Below are positions 2,719 to 60,689 of a stretch of 64,000 nucleotides of DNA, one piece after another (the first letter of the stretch is position 1; every line of letters starts with the position of its first letter). This DNA comes from Streptomyces liliiviolaceus (GTDB taxonomy: Bacteria > Actinomycetota > Actinomycetes > Streptomycetales > Streptomycetaceae): positions 8,122,001 to 8,186,000 of the forward strand of contig NZ_JAGPYQ010000001.1 of NCBI RefSeq assembly GCF_018070025.1, read 5' to 3'. A program made the translations under genes and the position numbers. The notes beneath the pieces were generated by a model. It had not been told where the DNA came from, did no database searches, and saw nothing but the letters and a program-made list of their open reading frames with translations.

Positions 2719-2763
2719 CGGGTGCGGGCCGTACGTGGCTGGGCGCGCAGTTCCCCGCGCCCC
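2719..2763 (-). repeat. Dispersed 45-bp repeat, intergenic copy
   Basis: Read on the minus strand this is a copy of the repeat with core GGGGCGCGGGGAACTGCGC (core at 2745-2763), followed by a C-rich arm ending near CCCGCAC. It sits in the gap between the two SseB-family genes. Adjacent bases 2760-2775 form a short GC-rich dyad (GCGCCCC/GGGGCGC) with the core end. Confidence 0.75.
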
Positions 2764-4430: not shown

Positions 4431-4527
4431 ACACCCTGGCCACCCGTCCGGACACCGCGCGGCCCCCTGCCGGAGCCGGGGGCATGCAATGATGTGCCCG
4501 CCAACTGCATACCGGCCGCTTGAATCC

Positions 4528-4768
4528 GCGCGGGAGAGTTCCGGGAAACACGTACACGCAGGTGTACGAGTGCCCGGGCGCCGAAGGAGCAAGTCCCTCC
4601 CTTGAATCTCTCAGGCCCCCGATACCGCACGGACGAGGCACATCTGAAAAGCGGGCCGCCCCTGACCGTCAGGGCGTAGGCCCCACCCAAGGTGCAAGTC
4701 GGTGACCCCCGTGTTCGGCGGCGGGTCACGGCGAACCTCTCAGGTCCCGATGACAGATGGGGAGGAAC
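4528..4768 (+). promoter_or_regulatory. Tandem glycine riboswitch (gcvT leader)
   Basis: Two consecutive glycine-aptamer cores are recognisable. The first has GCGCGGGAGAG, GCCGAAGGAGCAAG, GAATCTCTCAGG and GATACCGCACGGAC. The second has ACCCAAGGTGCAAG, GCGAACCTCTCAGG and GATGACAGATGGGGAGG. These are the conserved purine-rich internal loops and 3' strands of the family. The element ends 32 bases before gcvT. Glycine riboswitches upstream of gcvT are known in Streptomyces and switch the glycine-cleavage genes on when glycine is abundant. No strong intrinsic terminator follows the second aptamer, so control may be translational or by early termination; this cannot be decided by eye. Confidence 0.92.
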
Positions 4769-35686: not shown

Positions 35687-35991
35687 GAGCTTCCACCTTC
35701 ACAAAGGGCGTATCGCTGTCGCCAAGGACGTACGGACGTCATCCACGACGGTAGCGGCGTGGGTGCTCCACAACCACGGCGCGATCTGCTCCGCGGGGAG
35801 CTCGGGATGAGTCTGCGGGCTCGGTGGGGGCCGGCCGCGCAGTTCCCCGCGCCCCTTACGGGGCGCCCTTGTCGGGGCGCGGGCTCTCCGGGGCGCGTGG
35901 GCGGTATGGCCGATTCCGCACCGGCGTGCGGGCTTGTGGGGGTTCGCGGCGCACGAGAGGCTGCCGCATGTCGACGAGGGGAGCGCACACC
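35687..35991. other. Divergent intergenic region with a dispersed-repeat copy
   Basis: Between glgP (minus) and the S8 protease (plus). Bases 35813-35855 are an inverted copy of the 45-bp repeat (core 35837-35855), directly followed by further GGGGCGC units. GACGT-N4-ACGTC at 35727-35740 is a small dyad near the glgP start and could be an operator. No gene was found. Confidence 0.6.
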
Positions 35992-53701: not shown

Positions 53702-53902
53702 GTCGTGCGGGTGCAGTGGGGGTTGCCCGCGCAGTTCCCCGCGCCCCTGGGGTGCCTCGGGCCGTATCCATCGTGCGGGCGCGTGGGGGTTGCCCGCGCA
53801 GTTCCCCGCGCCCCTGACGGGGCGCAGCCCCGCTTTCAGGGGCGCGGGGAACTGCGCAATCTTTTAGGGGCGCGGGGAACTGCGCGGCGAGCCCCCACCG
53901 GA
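53702..53902. repeat. Cluster of four dispersed-repeat copies
   Basis: Four copies of the core occur in the merR-dctA gap: two in one orientation (cores 53729-53747 and 53796-53814) and two inverted (53839-53857 and 53867-53885). The first carries the full 45-bp unit. The opposed pairs could fold into large hairpins. No gene lies in 53645-54011 apart from this cluster, the merR promoter and the dctA terminator. Confidence 0.85.
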
Positions 53903-55550: not shown

Positions 55551-57458
55551 ATGCGCCTCCCCAGAGCCCCACGTCCCCGCAGCCTGGCCGGCCAGCTCTT
55601 CGCCATGCAGGCCGTGCTGGTCGCCGTCGTGGTCGCGGGCTGCGCGCTCTTCACGTACATCAGCGACCGCAGCCAGGCCGAGGCCGCGGCGGGCCGCCAG
55701 GCCATGGGGGTGGCGCGCTCGGTCGCGGACTCCCCTTCGGTACGGGAGGCCATCCGCACCGCGGACCCGACGAGGACGCTCCAGCCGTACGCGCTGGCGG
55801 TGCAGCGCGGTGCGCAGGTCGACTTCGTGACGATCATGGACCCCGAGGGCATCCGCTGGACCCACCCGAACGAGGAGCTGATCGGCAAGCACTTCCTGGG
55901 GCACACGGACCGTGCGCTGCTGGGCCAGTCGTTCACCGAGACGTACACCGGGACGCTCGGCGAGTCCGTGCGGGCGGTCACGCCGATCCATGACGGCGGC
56001 CGGATCGTCGGTCTCGTCAGTGCGGGGATCAAGGTCGACGAGATCAGCGCGCGGGTCGAGGAGCAGGTCAAGGCCCTGTTCGGGGTGGCCGCGGCGGCGC
56101 TGGCGCTGGGCGCCATCGGCACGTACGTCATAAACGCCCGGCTGCGCCGCTCCACCCACGGGATGAACGCGTCCGAGCTGAGCCGGATGCACGACTACCA
56201 CGAGGCCGCGCTGCACGCGGTGCGCGAGGGGCTGCTGATGCTGGACGGGCAGTTCCGGGTGGCGCTGATCAACGACGGCGGGCGCGAGCTGCTGGGGGTG
56301 GGCGGTGACGTGGTGGGCCACTCGGTGGCGGAGCTGGAACTGCCCGCTCCGCTGACGGGGGCGCTGCTGTCGGGCGAGCCACGGGTGGACGAGGTGTATC
56401 TCACCGAGTCGCGGGTGCTCGTCATGAACACCTCGCCGGTGTCGGGCGGTGAGCGCCGGGGCACGGTCGTGACCCTGCGCGATGTCACCGAGCTGCAGTC
56501 CCTGATGGGCGAGCTGGACTCCGAGCGGGGCTTCACGACGGCGTTGCGCTCCCAGGCGCACGAGGCCGCGAACCGGCTCCACACGGTCGTCTCGCTGATC
56601 GAGCTGGGGCGGGCCGAGGAGGCGGTCGACTTCGCCACGGCCGAGCTTGAGCTGGCGCAGGCCCTGACCGACCAGGTCGTGGCGGCGGTCAGCGAGCCGG
56701 TGCTCGCCGCGCTGCTGCTGGGCAAGACGGCCCAGGCGAACGAGCGCGGTGTGGAACTGGTGGTCTCCGAGGACAGCAGCATCGACGACGGCCTGCTCCC
56801 GGTCTCCCTCACCGCCCGTGACCTGGTGACGGTCCTGGGCAATCTGATCGACAACGCCGTGGACGCGGCGCAGGGCTCGGTGGGTGCCCGGGTCACCGTC
56901 ACCGCGCTCGCGGACACGGAGGGCCTCGTCCTGCGGGTCACGGACACCGGGGCGGGGGTGGACCCGGCCCACACGGAGGAGGTCTTCCAGCGCGGCTGGT
57001 CGACGAAGCCGTCGGGCCCCGGCGGACGCGGCCTGGGCCTCGCCCTGGTCCGCCAGGCCGTATCCCGCCACAACGGCACCCTGACGATGACGGAGGCCCC
57101 CGAAGGCGGCGCATCCTTCGAGGTACGCCTCCCCCTACCCCCCACCCCCCAGCGCCCTGAAGGAGCGCGGGGAACGGCGCGACCGGCCCCCACCGACCGG
57201 CACTCCGAAAAGGACCCCGCACCCCCTCGCCCTGAAGGGGCGCGGGGAACGGCGCGGCCAACCCCCACCGACCCGCACCTCAAAACCAACCCCGAGCCCC
57301 TCCCCCCTGAAGGGGCGCGGGGAACTGCGCGACCAGCCCCCACCGACCCGCACCCGCAAACCGAACCCGAGGCCGGGTCGGGGCCAGGGCCAGGGGCCGG
57401 GTCAGGGGCAGGGGCCAAAACCCAAGCCGCGCCCACGCCCCACGGAGGCACCCCATGA
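55551..57458 (+). CDS. Sensor histidine kinase (DctS/CitA/DcuS family) with repeat-derived tail
   Basis: 635 residues. Two membrane helices (about 12-38 and 172-195) bracket an extracytoplasmic PAS/Cache sensor domain (about 40-170, with RVDFVTIMDPEGIRWTHPNEELIGK-type motif and GESVRAVTPI). A cytoplasmic PAS domain, a SpoOB-type phosphoacceptor helix with His in RSQAHEAANRLHTVVSLIELG (about 337) and an HATPase domain (N box NLIDNAVDAA, G2 GGRGLGLALVRQA) follow. The last ~100 residues are odd: three 25-residue repeats (residues 535-609) of the type RPEGARGTARPAPTD, then a Gly/Pro/Ala run, all encoded by a dispersed DNA repeat. The stop overlaps the regulator start by ATGA. Confidence 0.92.
   Translation: MRLPRAPRPRSLAGQLFAMQAVLVAVVVAGCALFTYISDRSQAEAAAGRQAMGVARSVADSPSVREAIRTADPTRTLQPYALAVQRGAQVDFVTIMDPEGIRWTHPNEELIGKHFLGHTDRALLGQSFTETYTGTLGESVRAVTPIHDGGRIVGLVSAGIKVDEISARVEEQVKALFGVAAAALALGAIGTYVINARLRRSTHGMNASELSRMHDYHEAALHAVREGLLMLDGQFRVALINDGGRELLGVGGDVVGHSVAELELPAPLTGALLSGEPRVDEVYLTESRVLVMNTSPVSGGERRGTVVTLRDVTELQSLMGELDSERGFTTALRSQAHEAANRLHTVVSLIELGRAEEAVDFATAELELAQALTDQVVAAVSEPVLAALLLGKTAQANERGVELVVSEDSSIDDGLLPVSLTARDLVTVLGNLIDNAVDAAQGSVGARVTVTALADTEGLVLRVTDTGAGVDPAHTEEVFQRGWSTKPSGPGGRGLGLALVRQAVSRHNGTLTMTEAPEGGASFEVRLPLPPTPQRPEGARGTARPAPTDRHSEKDPAPPRPEGARGTARPTPTDPHLKTNPEPLPPEGARGTARPAPTDPHPQTEPEAGSGPGPGAGSGAGAKTQAAPTPHGGTP
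57153..57377 (+). repeat. Three in-frame copies of the dispersed repeat inside the kinase gene
   Basis: Units at 57153-57227, 57228-57302 and 57303-57377 repeat exactly every 75 bases, a multiple of three. Each contains the core (57162-57180, 57237-57255, 57312-57330; GGGGCGCGGGGAACTGCGC or close) and the CCCCCACCGACCCGCAC-type arm found in intergenic copies. They are read in frame as a 25-residue protein repeat. Confidence 0.92.
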
Positions 57459-58147
57459 CCACGCCCTCCCCCGGCCAGGACATCCGCGTCCTGATCGTCG
57501 AGGACGACCCCGTCGCGGCGGACGCGCACGTCCTCTACGTGGGCCGCGTGCCAGGATTCGTCGCGGTCGGCAAGGCCCACACCGGCGCCGAGGCCAGACG
57601 CGCCCTGGACCGCACCCCCGTGGACCTCCTCCTCCTCGACCTGCACCTCCCCGACGTGCACGGCCTGCAGCTCGCCCGTTCGCTGCGCGCCGCCGGCTAC
57701 CACGCGGACGTGATCGCGGTGACGTCCGCGCGCGACCTCACGGTCGTACGGGAGGGCGTGTCGCTCGGAGTCGTGCAGTACGTACTGAAGCCGTTCACCT
57801 TCGCCACACTCCGCGACCGGCTCATCCGCTACGCCGAGTTCCACGCGGCCGCCGGCGAGGCCAGTGGTCAGGACGAGGTCGACCGGGCCCTCGCCACGCT
57901 CCGGGCGCCGGGCCCGGCCGCCCTGCCGAAGGGGCTGAGCGCGCCCACCCTGGAGAAGGTCACGCACGCGCTGCGCGACCACACGGAGGGGCTGACGGCG
58001 ACCGGCGTCGCGGAGGCCGTCGGCATCTCGCGGATCACGGCCCGGCGGTATCTGGAGCATCTGGTGGACGCGGGACGCGCGGGCCGCAGCCCGCAGTACG
58101 GACAGGTGGGCCGGCCCGAGCTGCAGTACCGGTGGGTGAAGGGTTGA
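57455..58147 (+). CDS. Response regulator, CitB/DctR family
   Basis: 230 residues: receiver domain with acidic pair EDD (16-18), phosphoacceptor Asp62 in LLLLDLHLPDVHG, Thr/Lys switch residues in AVTSARD and VLKPFTF, a linker, and a C-terminal helix-turn-helix (LTATGVAEAVGISRITARRYLEHLVDAGRAGRSPQYGQVGRPELQYRW) of the CitB/DcuR type. The cognate kinase gene precedes it with a 4-base overlap. By analogy with DcuS/DcuR and DctS/DctR it should activate dctA in response to external C4-dicarboxylates or related acids. Confidence 0.92.
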   Translation: MTTPSPGQDIRVLIVEDDPVAADAHVLYVGRVPGFVAVGKAHTGAEARRALDRTPVDLLLLDLHLPDVHGLQLARSLRAAGYHADVIAVTSARDLTVVREGVSLGVVQYVLKPFTFATLRDRLIRYAEFHAAAGEASGQDEVDRALATLRAPGPAALPKGLSAPTLEKVTHALRDHTEGLTATGVAEAVGISRITARRYLEHLVDAGRAGRSPQYGQVGRPELQYRWVKG

Positions 58148-58270
58148 CCAGGTCGGGGGCCGAACAATCGGGCCATATGAGGGACTACACGGAGCTACGG
58201 GACACCTACGGGCCGCGACCGGGCGCGATCGGCCACGATGAGACACGACCGTAACGGAGCAGTCGCGCAA

Positions 58271-58305
58271 GGTCATTGACCTGACGCGACCACTCCTCTT
58301 ACGTT
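58271..58305 (+). promoter_or_regulatory. Promoter and operator-like dyad for the sugar ABC operon
   Basis: TTGACC (58276-58281), an 18-base spacer and TACGTT (58300-58305) give a good vegetative-type promoter 52 bases before the binding-protein gene. The -35 is embedded in the dyad GGTCA-T-TGACC (58271-58281), which suggests a repressor site. No regulator gene of the LacI or GntR type is adjacent. Confidence 0.6.
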
Positions 58306-58357
58306 CGGGCCATCGAACAACGGCCACAAAGACGTCGGCCGGCAGGAGGTCGTACCC

Positions 58358-59725
58358 GTGCGTCCCACCCCCGCTCCGTTCCTTCTCGCGACCCTGCTCG
58401 CCGCCTCCGCGCTCACCGCCTGCGGCAGCGGTTCCGGCAGTGATCCGGACACCGTGGAGATCTCCTACAAACAGTCGATGGACAACTCCGTGCGTGTCAT
58501 GGACACGTACCTCGCGGACATCAAGACGGAGTTCGAGAAGGCCAACCCGGGCAAGGAGGTCAAGCTCGTCCCGATCAAGGCCCCGGACTCGGAGTACTAC
58601 ACGAAGCTCCAGCAGATGCTCCGCTCCCCCAAGACCGCGCCGGACCTGGTCTACGAGGACACCTTCCTCATCAACTCGGACATCACGAGCGGCTACCTCA
58701 AGCCCCTGGACCCGTACCTCGACAAGTGGGACGACTGGGGCCAGTTCATCGACACGGCGAAGTCGGCGGCGCAGGCGGAGGACGGGAAGACGTACGGCGT
58801 CCCGGACGGCACGGACACCCGGGGCCTCTGGTTCGACAAGGACATCTTCGCGAAGGCGGGCCTGCCCGCGAACTGGCAGCCGAAGACCTGGGACGACATC
58901 CTCGACGCGGCCCGCACGATCAAGGAGAAGGTCCCGGACGTCACGCCCATGAACGTGTACACGGGCAAGCCCGCGGGCGAGGCGGCCACCATGCAGGGCT
59001 TCGAGATGCTCCTGTACGGGACGGCCACCGGCGCCACCGAGAGCCCGCTGTACGACACGGCGTCCAAGAAGTGGATCACCGGCAGCCAGGGGTTCAAGGA
59101 CTCGCTCCAGTTCGTCGAGACGGTCTTCAAGGAGAAGCTCGGCCCGGACGTCTCGGACGCCCTCGACCCGAACTTCGCGACCAGCGTCCGCGGTGAGCTC
59201 CTCCCCGAGGGCAAGCTCGGCATCAACCTCGACGGCTCCTGGCTCCCGCAGGACTGGCTGAAGGGCAGCGGCCACGAGTGGCCGGAGTGGTCCAAGAAGC
59301 TGGGCCTCGCGTACATGCCCACGCAGGCCGGTCAGTCCCCCGGCAAGGTGAGCATGTCGGGCGGCTGGACCTGGGCCGTCCCGAGCAAGGCGGCCAACCC
59401 CGACCTGGCCTTCGAGTTCATCAAGACGATGCAGACGAAGGCGAACGCCCAGAAGTGGTACATCGCCAACTCCGGTATCGCGGTGCGCACGGACGTGGCC
59501 GAGGACCCGGCGTACGCGAAGGCGCAGCCCGGCATCGAGTTCTTCACCGGCCTGGTGGCGAACACGCACTACCGCCCGGCCTACCCCGCGTACCCGAAGG
59601 TCTCCACGGCCATCCAGGAGGCGATGGAGAGCGTGACGACGGGCGACAGCTCGGTCGCGGAGGCGGCCAAGGGCTACGACGAGGAACTGAAGTCGGTCAC
59701 GGACAACCAGGTCATCAAGAAGTGA
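58358..59725 (+). CDS. Sugar ABC transporter solute-binding lipoprotein (family 1)
   Basis: 455 residues from GTG 58358 with GGAGG upstream. Lipobox LTAC after a short signal (PFLLATLLAASALTAC) anchors it on the outer membrane face. The family 1 binding-protein fold shows TEFEKANPGKEVKLVPI, the ligand-lobe segments APDLVYEDTFLINSDI and TRGLWFDKDIFAKAGLPANWQPKTWDDILDAARTIK, and the end DLAFEFIKTMQTKANAQKWY. These bind oligosaccharides such as maltose, cellobiose or similar. It is followed by two permease genes but no ATPase gene; in Streptomyces the shared ATPase MsiK usually serves such systems. Confidence 0.92.
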   Translation: MRPTPAPFLLATLLAASALTACGSGSGSDPDTVEISYKQSMDNSVRVMDTYLADIKTEFEKANPGKEVKLVPIKAPDSEYYTKLQQMLRSPKTAPDLVYEDTFLINSDITSGYLKPLDPYLDKWDDWGQFIDTAKSAAQAEDGKTYGVPDGTDTRGLWFDKDIFAKAGLPANWQPKTWDDILDAARTIKEKVPDVTPMNVYTGKPAGEAATMQGFEMLLYGTATGATESPLYDTASKKWITGSQGFKDSLQFVETVFKEKLGPDVSDALDPNFATSVRGELLPEGKLGINLDGSWLPQDWLKGSGHEWPEWSKKLGLAYMPTQAGQSPGKVSMSGGWTWAVPSKAANPDLAFEFIKTMQTKANAQKWYIANSGIAVRTDVAEDPAYAKAQPGIEFFTGLVANTHYRPAYPAYPKVSTAIQEAMESVTTGDSSVAEAAKGYDEELKSVTDNQVIKK

Positions 59726-59753
59726 GCGCAGCACGGCGAGAAGTGAGCACAGT

Positions 59754-60689
59754 GTGGTCGTAAGTCAGCGGGGAGCCGGTCCCGGTGAGCGCACGGTGGT
59801 CGTCAAGGAGAGCGGGAACACCCGCGCTCCGCGGCTGCGCACCCTCACCCGGGCCCTCCCCGTCACCCCCGCCCTCGTCATCCTCGTCCTCTTCCTGGCC
59901 GGCCCGATCGCGTACTGCGCCTACATCGCCTTCACCGATCTGCAGCTCACCGGCCAGGCCGAGTCGTCGTTCACCGGTTTCGACAACTTCCGTACGGCCT
60001 TCGAGGACGACGCGTTCCTCAACGCCGTATGGCTGACGCTCGTCTTCACGTTCCTCAGCTCGATCGTCGGCCAGAACACACTGGGCCTGGCCCTGGCCGC
60101 GCTGATGCAGCGCGCGTCGAAGCCGGTCCGTACGCTCACCGGCGGGATCGTCGTCACGGCCTGGGTGCTCCCCGAGGTCGTGGCCGGCTTCCTCCTGTAC
60201 GCCTTCTTCCGCCGCGAGGGCACGCTGAACGCGATCCTCGACTGGCTGCATCTGCCGTCCCAGAACTGGCTGTTCACGCTGCCGATCCTGGCGGTGTCGT
60301 TCGCGAACGTGTGGCGCGGCACGGCCTTCTCGATGCTGGTGTACTCGGCCGCCCTGAACGAGATCCCGAAGGAGATCACCGAGGCGGCGGAGGTGGACGG
60401 CGCGGGCGGCTGGCGCCGGATGTGGCACATCACGCTGCCGATGATCCGCCGGTCCATCGGCACGAACCTGATGCTCAACACCCTCCAGACGCTGTCGGTG
60501 TTCGGGCTGATCTGGGTGATGACGAGGGGCGGCCCGGGAAACCGCAGCCAGACCCTGCCCCTGTTCATGTACGAGCAGGCCTTCCAGAAGAGCATGATCG
60601 GCTACGGGACCGCCGTCGCCCTCCTCCTGCTGGTGGTCGGCTCGCTGTTCTCCCTGGTCTATATGCGCCTGCTGCGGACGGAGGTCTGA
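59754..60689 (+). CDS. Sugar ABC transporter permease (MalF-like)
   Basis: 311 residues. GTG 59754 is taken as the start; GTG 59796 would shorten the cytoplasmic lead by 14 residues. Six membrane helices start with LPVTPALVILVLFLAGPIAYCAYIAF; the coupling EAA loop is EIPKEITEAAEVDGAGGWRRMWHITLPMI. YEQAFQKSMIGYGTAVALLLLVVGSL is the family-typical end. It pairs with the next permease to form the membrane channel fed by the preceding binding protein. The next start is one base after this stop, so the permeases are co-translated. Confidence 0.92.
   Translation: MVVSQRGAGPGERTVVVKESGNTRAPRLRTLTRALPVTPALVILVLFLAGPIAYCAYIAFTDLQLTGQAESSFTGFDNFRTAFEDDAFLNAVWLTLVFTFLSSIVGQNTLGLALAALMQRASKPVRTLTGGIVVTAWVLPEVVAGFLLYAFFRREGTLNAILDWLHLPSQNWLFTLPILAVSFANVWRGTAFSMLVYSAALNEIPKEITEAAEVDGAGGWRRMWHITLPMIRRSIGTNLMLNTLQTLSVFGLIWVMTRGGPGNRSQTLPLFMYEQAFQKSMIGYGTAVALLLLVVGSLFSLVYMRLLRTEV

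Follow-up and report, generated by a model that had tools for sequence, protein, structure and literature searches.

A Short Streptomyces Repeat with a Nearly Invariant Core, Found between Genes and in the Tail of a DcuS-like Histidine Kinase

Kinase gene and its orthologs

In the window, by which we mean the whole 64,000-nucleotide stretch of Streptomyces liliiviolaceus DNA that was analyzed, positions 55551..57458 of the + strand encode a DcuS/CitA-like sensor histidine kinase of 635 amino acids, identified by profile matches. A profile search places its domains at residues 40-173 (sCache_3_2), 222-315 (PAS_4), and 423-530 (HATPase_c, 56817..57140, + strand). The top NCBIfam model, NF008298 (DcuS/MalK family), scores 351.8 bits against a curated cut-off of 520, and the protein is for this reason named DcuS-like rather than a member of the family. 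The HATPase_c domain is complete 5' of the repeats and is the last one, ending at residue 530 (base 57140). The 105 residues from there to the stop form the C-terminal part that holds the repeats, namely three + strand units of 75 bp, or 25 codons: unit 1, RPEGARGTARPAPTDRHSEKDPAPP, at 57153..57227 (core 57162-57180, with one mismatch); unit 2, RPEGARGTARPTPTDPHLKTNPEPL, at 57228..57302 (core 57237-57255); and unit 3, PPEGARGTARPAPTDPHPQTEPEAG, at 57303..57377 (core 57312-57330). The core starts, 57162, 57237, and 57312, are spaced by exactly 75, and the reading frame stays open across all units, so that the in-frame 25-residue repeat behind the ATPase domain is present as the original prediction described it. 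Tandem Repeats Finder reports the array at 57155-57371 with a period of 75, 2.9 copies, 84% matches, and 4% indels. At 57455..57458 (+) the kinase stop overlaps, within an ATGA, the start of a DcuR/DpiA-like response regulator (57455..58147, +, profile matches).

A total of 80 orthologs of the kinase were found; the domain end is reached in 78 of them and the tail is complete in 76. The complete tails span 8-148 amino acids, with a median of 27.5, and none of the 76 contains the core at up to two mismatches, which makes the insertion specific to the present lineage. A three-mismatch match in one ortholog tail (L089) was counted as chance. The kinases of S. beigongshangae, sp. BV286, and S. phaeochromogenes, 90-94% identical to the present one, have complete tails of different low-complexity sequence and share with it the terminus P(H/Y)GGT. 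The tail of the S. aurantiacus kinase (93% identical) is cut by a contig end, and the alignment with the S. apricus kinase (95% identical) reaches residue 491 only. In S. apricus (L057, ~4473-4578) the alignment skips from window position 57023 to 59829, so that the end of the kinase gene is absent together with the regulator and the gene after it; this jump is either a real deletion or an assembly effect.

The three kinase units differ from one another outside the core evenly over codon positions 1, 2, and 3 (4:5:5, 4:5:6, and 5:3:4) and show no sign of selection on the peptide. A functional, selected kinase tail made of the 25-residue peptide repeat, for which the in-frame position and the preserved 25-residue periodicity speak, is hardly credible to us in view of these even differences, the lack of the repeat in all complete ortholog tails, and a second protein (PRTase/TRSP, see below) that conserves the DNA across a change of reading frame. 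The earlier view of the tail as a tolerated extension holds, and the kinase tails examined offer no case of a tail of this composition conserved in distant species that lack the intergenic repeat.

The overlap at the kinase stop is general: the tetranucleotide is ATGA in 70 and GTGA in 6 of the complete orthologs, and a regulator-like ORF begins there in 72 of the 76. In three of the exceptions (L074, L081, and L083) a short ORF alone starts at the overlap, while in the fourth (L125) a longer ORF starts there, with no regulator motif found within its first 45 residues. With the kinase stop overlapping the start of the regulator, DNA added in the tail region must remain open and in frame, which is why the repeat is translated here. 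In our reading, the stop-start coupling makes the spacer between the last domain and the regulator obligatorily translated, and the insertion in the kinase came about by accident in this lineage, at an operon junction whose translation allowed it. Elsewhere in the genome, the kinase array has its best match at 79% identity over 223 of 231 bases (the search gave 97 matches, from 40 scored among 799 candidate regions). At 19 array-like loci of this genome, some of which overlap stretches already sampled for the survey below, none of the 82 copies lies inside a predicted gene.

Copies, core, and genomic position of the repeat

The window contains nine matches to the core at up to three mismatches, for 0.00 expected by chance (0 in 100 shuffles). 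Three are those of the kinase and the other six all fall between predicted genes, at 2741..2763 (-), at 35833..35855 (-), and as four cores in one gap (53725-, 53792-, 53839+, and 53867+; 53725..53889), back to back around GGGGCGCAGCCCC. The same repeat type is thus found both between and inside genes, as had been proposed, and the 75-base units do carry the core of the six intergenic copies. The gap at 53.6-54.0 kb holds one copy in S. beigongshangae, three in sp. BV286, and two in S. apricus. With up to two mismatches allowed, the whole 11.13-Mb genome has 731 + 766 = 1,497 matches, compared to 4 for the reversed pattern. Chance or base composition as the origin is ruled out by the shuffles, the reversed-pattern control, and the mismatch spectrum given below.

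Genomes of the genus have between 0 and 1,497 copies, the maximum being that of S. liliiviolaceus. Among 295 Streptomyces genomes, 76 have no copy, 63 have 1-3, 12 have 4-9, and 144 have at least 10. In 224 genomes of the same class sampled outside the genus, matches are at chance level: the core gives one or two in 12 genomes, the reversed control also matches in 12, and each of the ten out-of-genus sites listed has one or two mismatches. The short form of the element, to which this core belongs, accordingly occurs beyond chance in Streptomyces only in this survey. No core match was found in 50,697 phage records, and the 12 plasmid records with a match, of 72,556, are all from Streptomyces. 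The density of copies along the genome is very uneven: eight 20-kb samples between 4.4 and 5.8 Mb (G000 C1) hold 0-1 copies each, and one 20-kb sample at 3.3 Mb holds 16.

The short form is ~45 bp long and consists of an almost invariant core of ~20 bp (A GGGGCGCGGGGAACKGCGC) and a looser 3' half. Its consensus, built from 101 copies of this genome and 45 copies of 11 other genomes, reads CCCCTNA, followed by GGGGCGCGGGGAACKGCGC and then by GACCAGCC(C/A)C.AC..CCCGCA. In 1.264 Mb of sampled sequence the 19-nt core has 225 exact matches and 29 with one mismatch, while the reversed control has 0 and 1. At two, three, and four mismatches the core gives 5, 19, and 113 matches and the control 8, 54, and 186; at five and six the two are about equal (809 versus 737 and 3,890 versus 3,552). 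Neutral decay would fill the classes of two to four mismatches, which are empty beyond background. In 173 of 258 copies, the 23 nt adjoining the core agree with the consensus at 15-21 positions when compared without gaps. A homogenizing process such as gene conversion could also yield a frozen core; only the sharp edges of the core argue against it.

Two structural features of the element were considered and discarded. On inspection, a CTGCG/CGCAG stem linking the core to the 3' half does not hold, since about one-third of the copies have C as the terminal partner, while the corresponding base of the core hardly varies. The idea that the whole element is open in all six frames was ruled out, as this is true of 57 of 259 copies only; five frames are open in 98, four in 77, and fewer in 27. 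Some short forms have CGCAATCTTTT, CGCAGTCTTTT, or similar behind the core and stand in tandem at 28-35 bp (L033 11430-11522, L051 6663-6760, and window 53839-53889).

The position of the copies relative to genes was analyzed in 61 stretches, 8 of them picked around known matches and the other 53 contributing 189 copies in 1.104 Mb. Genes were called by our own codon-usage script, not taken from the annotation (357 training ORFs, 1,044 genes, 85% coding). Coding sequence makes up 85% of the sample, yet 253 of the 259 copies lie outside predicted genes, six of these at the ends of stretches, where they are not flanked by two genes. The six overlaps comprise the three kinase copies, two matches with two mismatches in ordinary genes (L043 and L143), and one overlap of a single base with a stop codon. 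The two-mismatch matches were treated as chance, because in this sample the reversed control gives 8 such matches and the core 5. Copies in genes are hence rare, 3 of the 259 sampled plus three spurious overlaps. In an additional 200 kb next to the window, all 38 copies fall outside predicted genes.

Copies are most frequent between convergent genes, with 3.93 per kb of gap; the density is 1.23 for tandem and 0.42 for divergent gaps. Convergent gaps make up 38 of the 98 gaps with copies and 90 of the 605 without (at least 40 bp; p = 1.6e-7). In tandem gaps the copies lean toward the upstream stop, the last quarter of the gap holding 8 of 130, and their orientation relative to the upstream gene is the same in 58 cases and opposite in 72. 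Adjacent pairs less than 300 bp apart are oriented ++ in 61 cases, -- in 52, -+ in 34, and +- in 7. Some -+ pairs flank palindromes of 9-10 bp such as TAGGTACCTA, and a GGGGC..GCCCC hairpin lies between the partners in 11 of the 34. The spacing of same-strand pairs has its main peak at 72-75 (45 pairs) and a minor one at 34-35 (13 pairs), while other genomes show different, locally regular periods, e.g., 68-68-68 and 127-127-126. Such locus-specific periods fit local tandem duplication.

Other translated copies and the long isoform

A second protein that carries the element is a PRTase_2/TRSP/StiP/PELOTA fusion protein, present in all 41 genomes of the genus that were searched. The element lies in its linker in 8 of 24 genomes examined (L234-L241), and in 4 of these 8 as a back-to-back pair that is read VAQFPAP...GARGTARPAPT or nearly so. 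The S. liliiviolaceus linker (L254) is without the element, and a three-mismatch match in another linker (L256) was taken as chance. In six orthologs the codon columns of the linker core are synonymously invariant in 7 of 7 cases, compared to 12 of 60 flanking columns that encode the same residue, which gives ~1.3e-5 when the columns are treated as independent and the shared ancestry of the six species is ignored. For the second linker core (four orthologs) the values are 6 of 6 versus 29 of 67, weaker taken alone. Rare codons are found in or right behind this second core: measured on the usage of the S. liliiviolaceus genome, ACT, CCA, and CGA account for 1.6%, 1.9%, and 2.8% of the codons for their amino acid. 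In one linker (L240) the same DNA is read in a different frame, as GRAVPRAP. The synonymously frozen codons together with this frame change place the constraint on the nucleic acid and not on the peptide, and the codon comparison in this second gene suggests that it is the DNA sequence that is preserved.

Further translated copies were found at gene ends and starts. In S. apricus three copies make up the end of a predicted ORF of 266 amino acids. In an ABC transporter gene (G067) and in a gene for an AMP-binding protein on a Streptomyces plasmid, a copy at an overlapping gene junction provides the first codons, the start being predicted or annotated in both.

One further fusion-protein linker (L242) has ~30 bases in place of the center of both short cores, in frame and mutually alike by eye. 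These replacement centers, in the same two places of one protein, look like the center of a long isoform of the element. The long center, TGCGGCTCCGCCGCGTGGGCGCGA, was searched within the genus and occurs in 150 of the 295 genomes, with 2 reversed-control matches counted. Nineteen copies of this center, each from a different genome, have versions of the short form's AGGGGCGCGGGG and GCGCGACC on their two sides, and all but one of them are outside predicted genes. The two forms are distributed together (Spearman 0.81), the long form being present in 133 of the 144 genomes with at least 10 short copies and in 9 of the 139 with three or fewer. The S. liliiviolaceus genome has 15 long-form copies, and in four kinase relatives (L060, L085, L087, and L117) the long form is located upstream of the kinase, near the place that the short form occupies in others.

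We have also considered whether the core is kept as RNA, as a hairpin or processing site at 3' ends, for example, a termination or mRNA-stability element. The copies lie on the 3' side of genes and are seldom found in divergent (promoter) gaps, one orientation of the long isoform gives a strong hairpin (-38.2 kcal/mol, z -2.42; z -0.90 in the other), and some short forms have the T-rich stretch CGCAATCTTTT. We also count in its favor a passage of PMC8780764 according to which transcript ends of S. avermitilis have GC-rich palindromes without a poly-U tail. On the other hand, the element may point either way with respect to the upstream gene, the short form folds as RNA at most slightly better than its shuffles (z -1.44 and 0.06), DNA folding of four stretches of the window yields z values of -0.19 to -2.17, and in 101 copies the loop bases are as invariant as the stem bases. 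We thus regard an RNA function as unlikely, although it is a possibility to be kept in mind.

Site history, mobility, and interpretation

The history of the sites was followed by comparison with S. apricus over ~200 kb, in which 98 adjacent gene pairs are syntenic with a median protein identity of 93%. Of the syntenic gaps, 13 have a match here, and 11 of these are matched in S. apricus too, in several cases with a lower copy number; one gap, in which a two-mismatch match stands alone and the rest of the element is missing in both species, was dropped, leaving 10 common gaps of 12 with real copies. The copy numbers at these sites differ, and at one of the 10 the copy of S. apricus has the opposite orientation. 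Some S. apricus gaps read N within the repeat, so its copy counts may be low. In most common copies the core and much of the element are identical in the syntenic alignments while the flanks drift. For this species pair, most sites are thus old and it is mostly the copy number that changes in place, and sites are also gained or lost, as in 2 of the 12 gaps and in the kinase.

These data bear on the possibility of a MITE-like, non-autonomous element that has undergone a burst too recent for decay. Such a burst would account for copy numbers from 0 to 1,497 within one genus. It is rendered improbable by the 10 of 12 sites in common at this degree of protein divergence, by cores that are exact in most of the common copies while the flanks have diverged, and by an adjoining half that has diverged in copies with an intact core. 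Neither terminal inverted repeats nor target-site duplications were recognized by eye in the 13 gaps, which include two filled/empty pairs only.

The original prediction had proposed an active spread mechanism, REP-like or based on slippage, and recommended a search for a RAYT. A Y1 transposase that spreads the repeat and placed three copies in the kinase gene would agree with a high-copy, intergenic repeat that forms inverted pairs like REPINs. The genome has a single match to the Y1 model (PF01797), an IS200-like gene that scores 22.6 bits with the RAYT model (NF047646) against a cut-off of 80. We take this gene to be an IS200-like TnpA beside a TnpB-like gene, and its 3.4-kb locus is free of the repeat. 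No cognate RAYT was found in the S. liliiviolaceus genome by this profile search. A Y1 match is present in 12 of 22 high-copy genomes and in 2 of 18 zero-copy genomes, but absent in the other 10 high-copy ones, including those with 925 and 874 copies; Y1 and the repeat are loosely associated, with no requirement of one for the other. Spread by a RAYT is therefore very improbable in our assessment. The part of the proposal that holds is local multiplication by slippage or unequal exchange, as seen in the locus-specific tandem periods and in the copy-number differences at common sites, while brisk dispersal does not agree with gaps that are mostly filled in S. apricus too. A divergent TnpB-like ORF and Y1 TnpA, forming an IS200/IS605-like pair, were seen at L031 200-1881.

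We consider it probable that the repeat is a REP/BIME-like Streptomyces element without a RAYT, whose core is under selection and whose presence in the kinase tail is a tolerated by-product. According to this proposal, a putative cellular factor would recognize the core in DNA (or RNA), and selection would keep the core intact. The copies would multiply in place by tandem duplication and reach new sites only occasionally. Within the operon of the kinase, the DNA from the ATPase domain to the regulator gene would act as a hypervariable spacer that is translated; at least one unit may have landed or grown there, and with a period divisible by three it would have given rise to the 25-residue repeat, a tolerated by-product rather than an adapted domain. 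No protein that recognizes the core was identified in our screen, which covered Y1 and RAYT.

A broader version, which we put forward tentatively, is that of a genus-wide nucleic-acid site with two interchangeable isoforms, a maximum of ~1,500 copies, a putative trans-acting factor, and no RAYT. The proteins in which it is translated would then be passive carriers at translated junctions and linkers, their codons frozen by a requirement of the DNA. The nucleic-acid constraint, the rarity in genes, the second isoform, and the stop-start overlap are points that the original prediction missed, and the repeat element itself is a more interesting object than the kinase insertion.

REP and BIME sequences are short, partly palindromic, and extragenic, with hundreds to more than 1,000 copies. 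They are found behind genes and in convergent gaps, combined in tandem or in inverted orientation, and BIMEs are bound by gyrase, IHF, or DNA polymerase I. The Streptomyces repeat resembles REP/BIME (PU) and REPIN sequences in being short, many-copy, and extragenic, with palindromic parts (the hairpin being weak in the short form and strong in one orientation of the long one), in lying 3' of genes and between convergent ones, and in forming tandem arrays and inverted pairs with a short spacer. It differs from REP/RAYT systems in that no RAYT was found in the S. liliiviolaceus genome and 10 of the 22 high-copy genomes are without a Y1 match, and from REP/BIME in its sequence, in its two isoforms with both flanks in common, and in a short form that exceeds chance in Streptomyces only in our survey. 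The REP stem-loops of E. coli are mentioned in a passage of PMC4681348.

A passage of PMC10969869 describes Rickettsia palindromic elements (RPE), palindromic repeats that lie in frame within protein genes and add a peptide. The Streptomyces repeat is similar in this respect, since it resides in frame within the kinase, the PRTase/TRSP linker, and the S. apricus ORF, but an RPE has ~150 bp and is often in genes, whereas the present repeat is in genes in 3 of 259 sampled copies and has its constraint on the nucleic acid. The same source describes MITEs, ERIC, BOX, RUP, and CIR as small, dispersed elements able to fuse in frame. The Streptomyces repeat shares the small size, the dispersal, and the in-frame fusion to a gene. 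It differs in combining a hyperconserved core with freely varying flanks, and no terminal inverted repeats or target duplications were recognized by eye.

The present analysis points to a repeat family of very high abundance in the main antibiotic-producing genus; no description of the core, the long center, or the family was found in the open-access literature. The core behaves like a putative binding site, and its partner factor can be sought by genome comparison, since 144 of the 295 genomes have at least 10 copies and 139 have three or fewer. The kinase suggests a route from non-coding repeat to protein, as translationally coupled junctions must stay open, so that DNA landing there is translated. 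Annotators should infer no function from stretches of the GARGTARP, VAQFPAP, and RAVPRAP types.

At the Rfam gathering thresholds, the repeats in the window have no match. Five weak matches far below the gathering scores in another stretch (L048), four of them to microRNA families, were taken as chance. The window also contains a glycine riboswitch aptamer at 4521-4637 (+), with a score of 59.7 bits.
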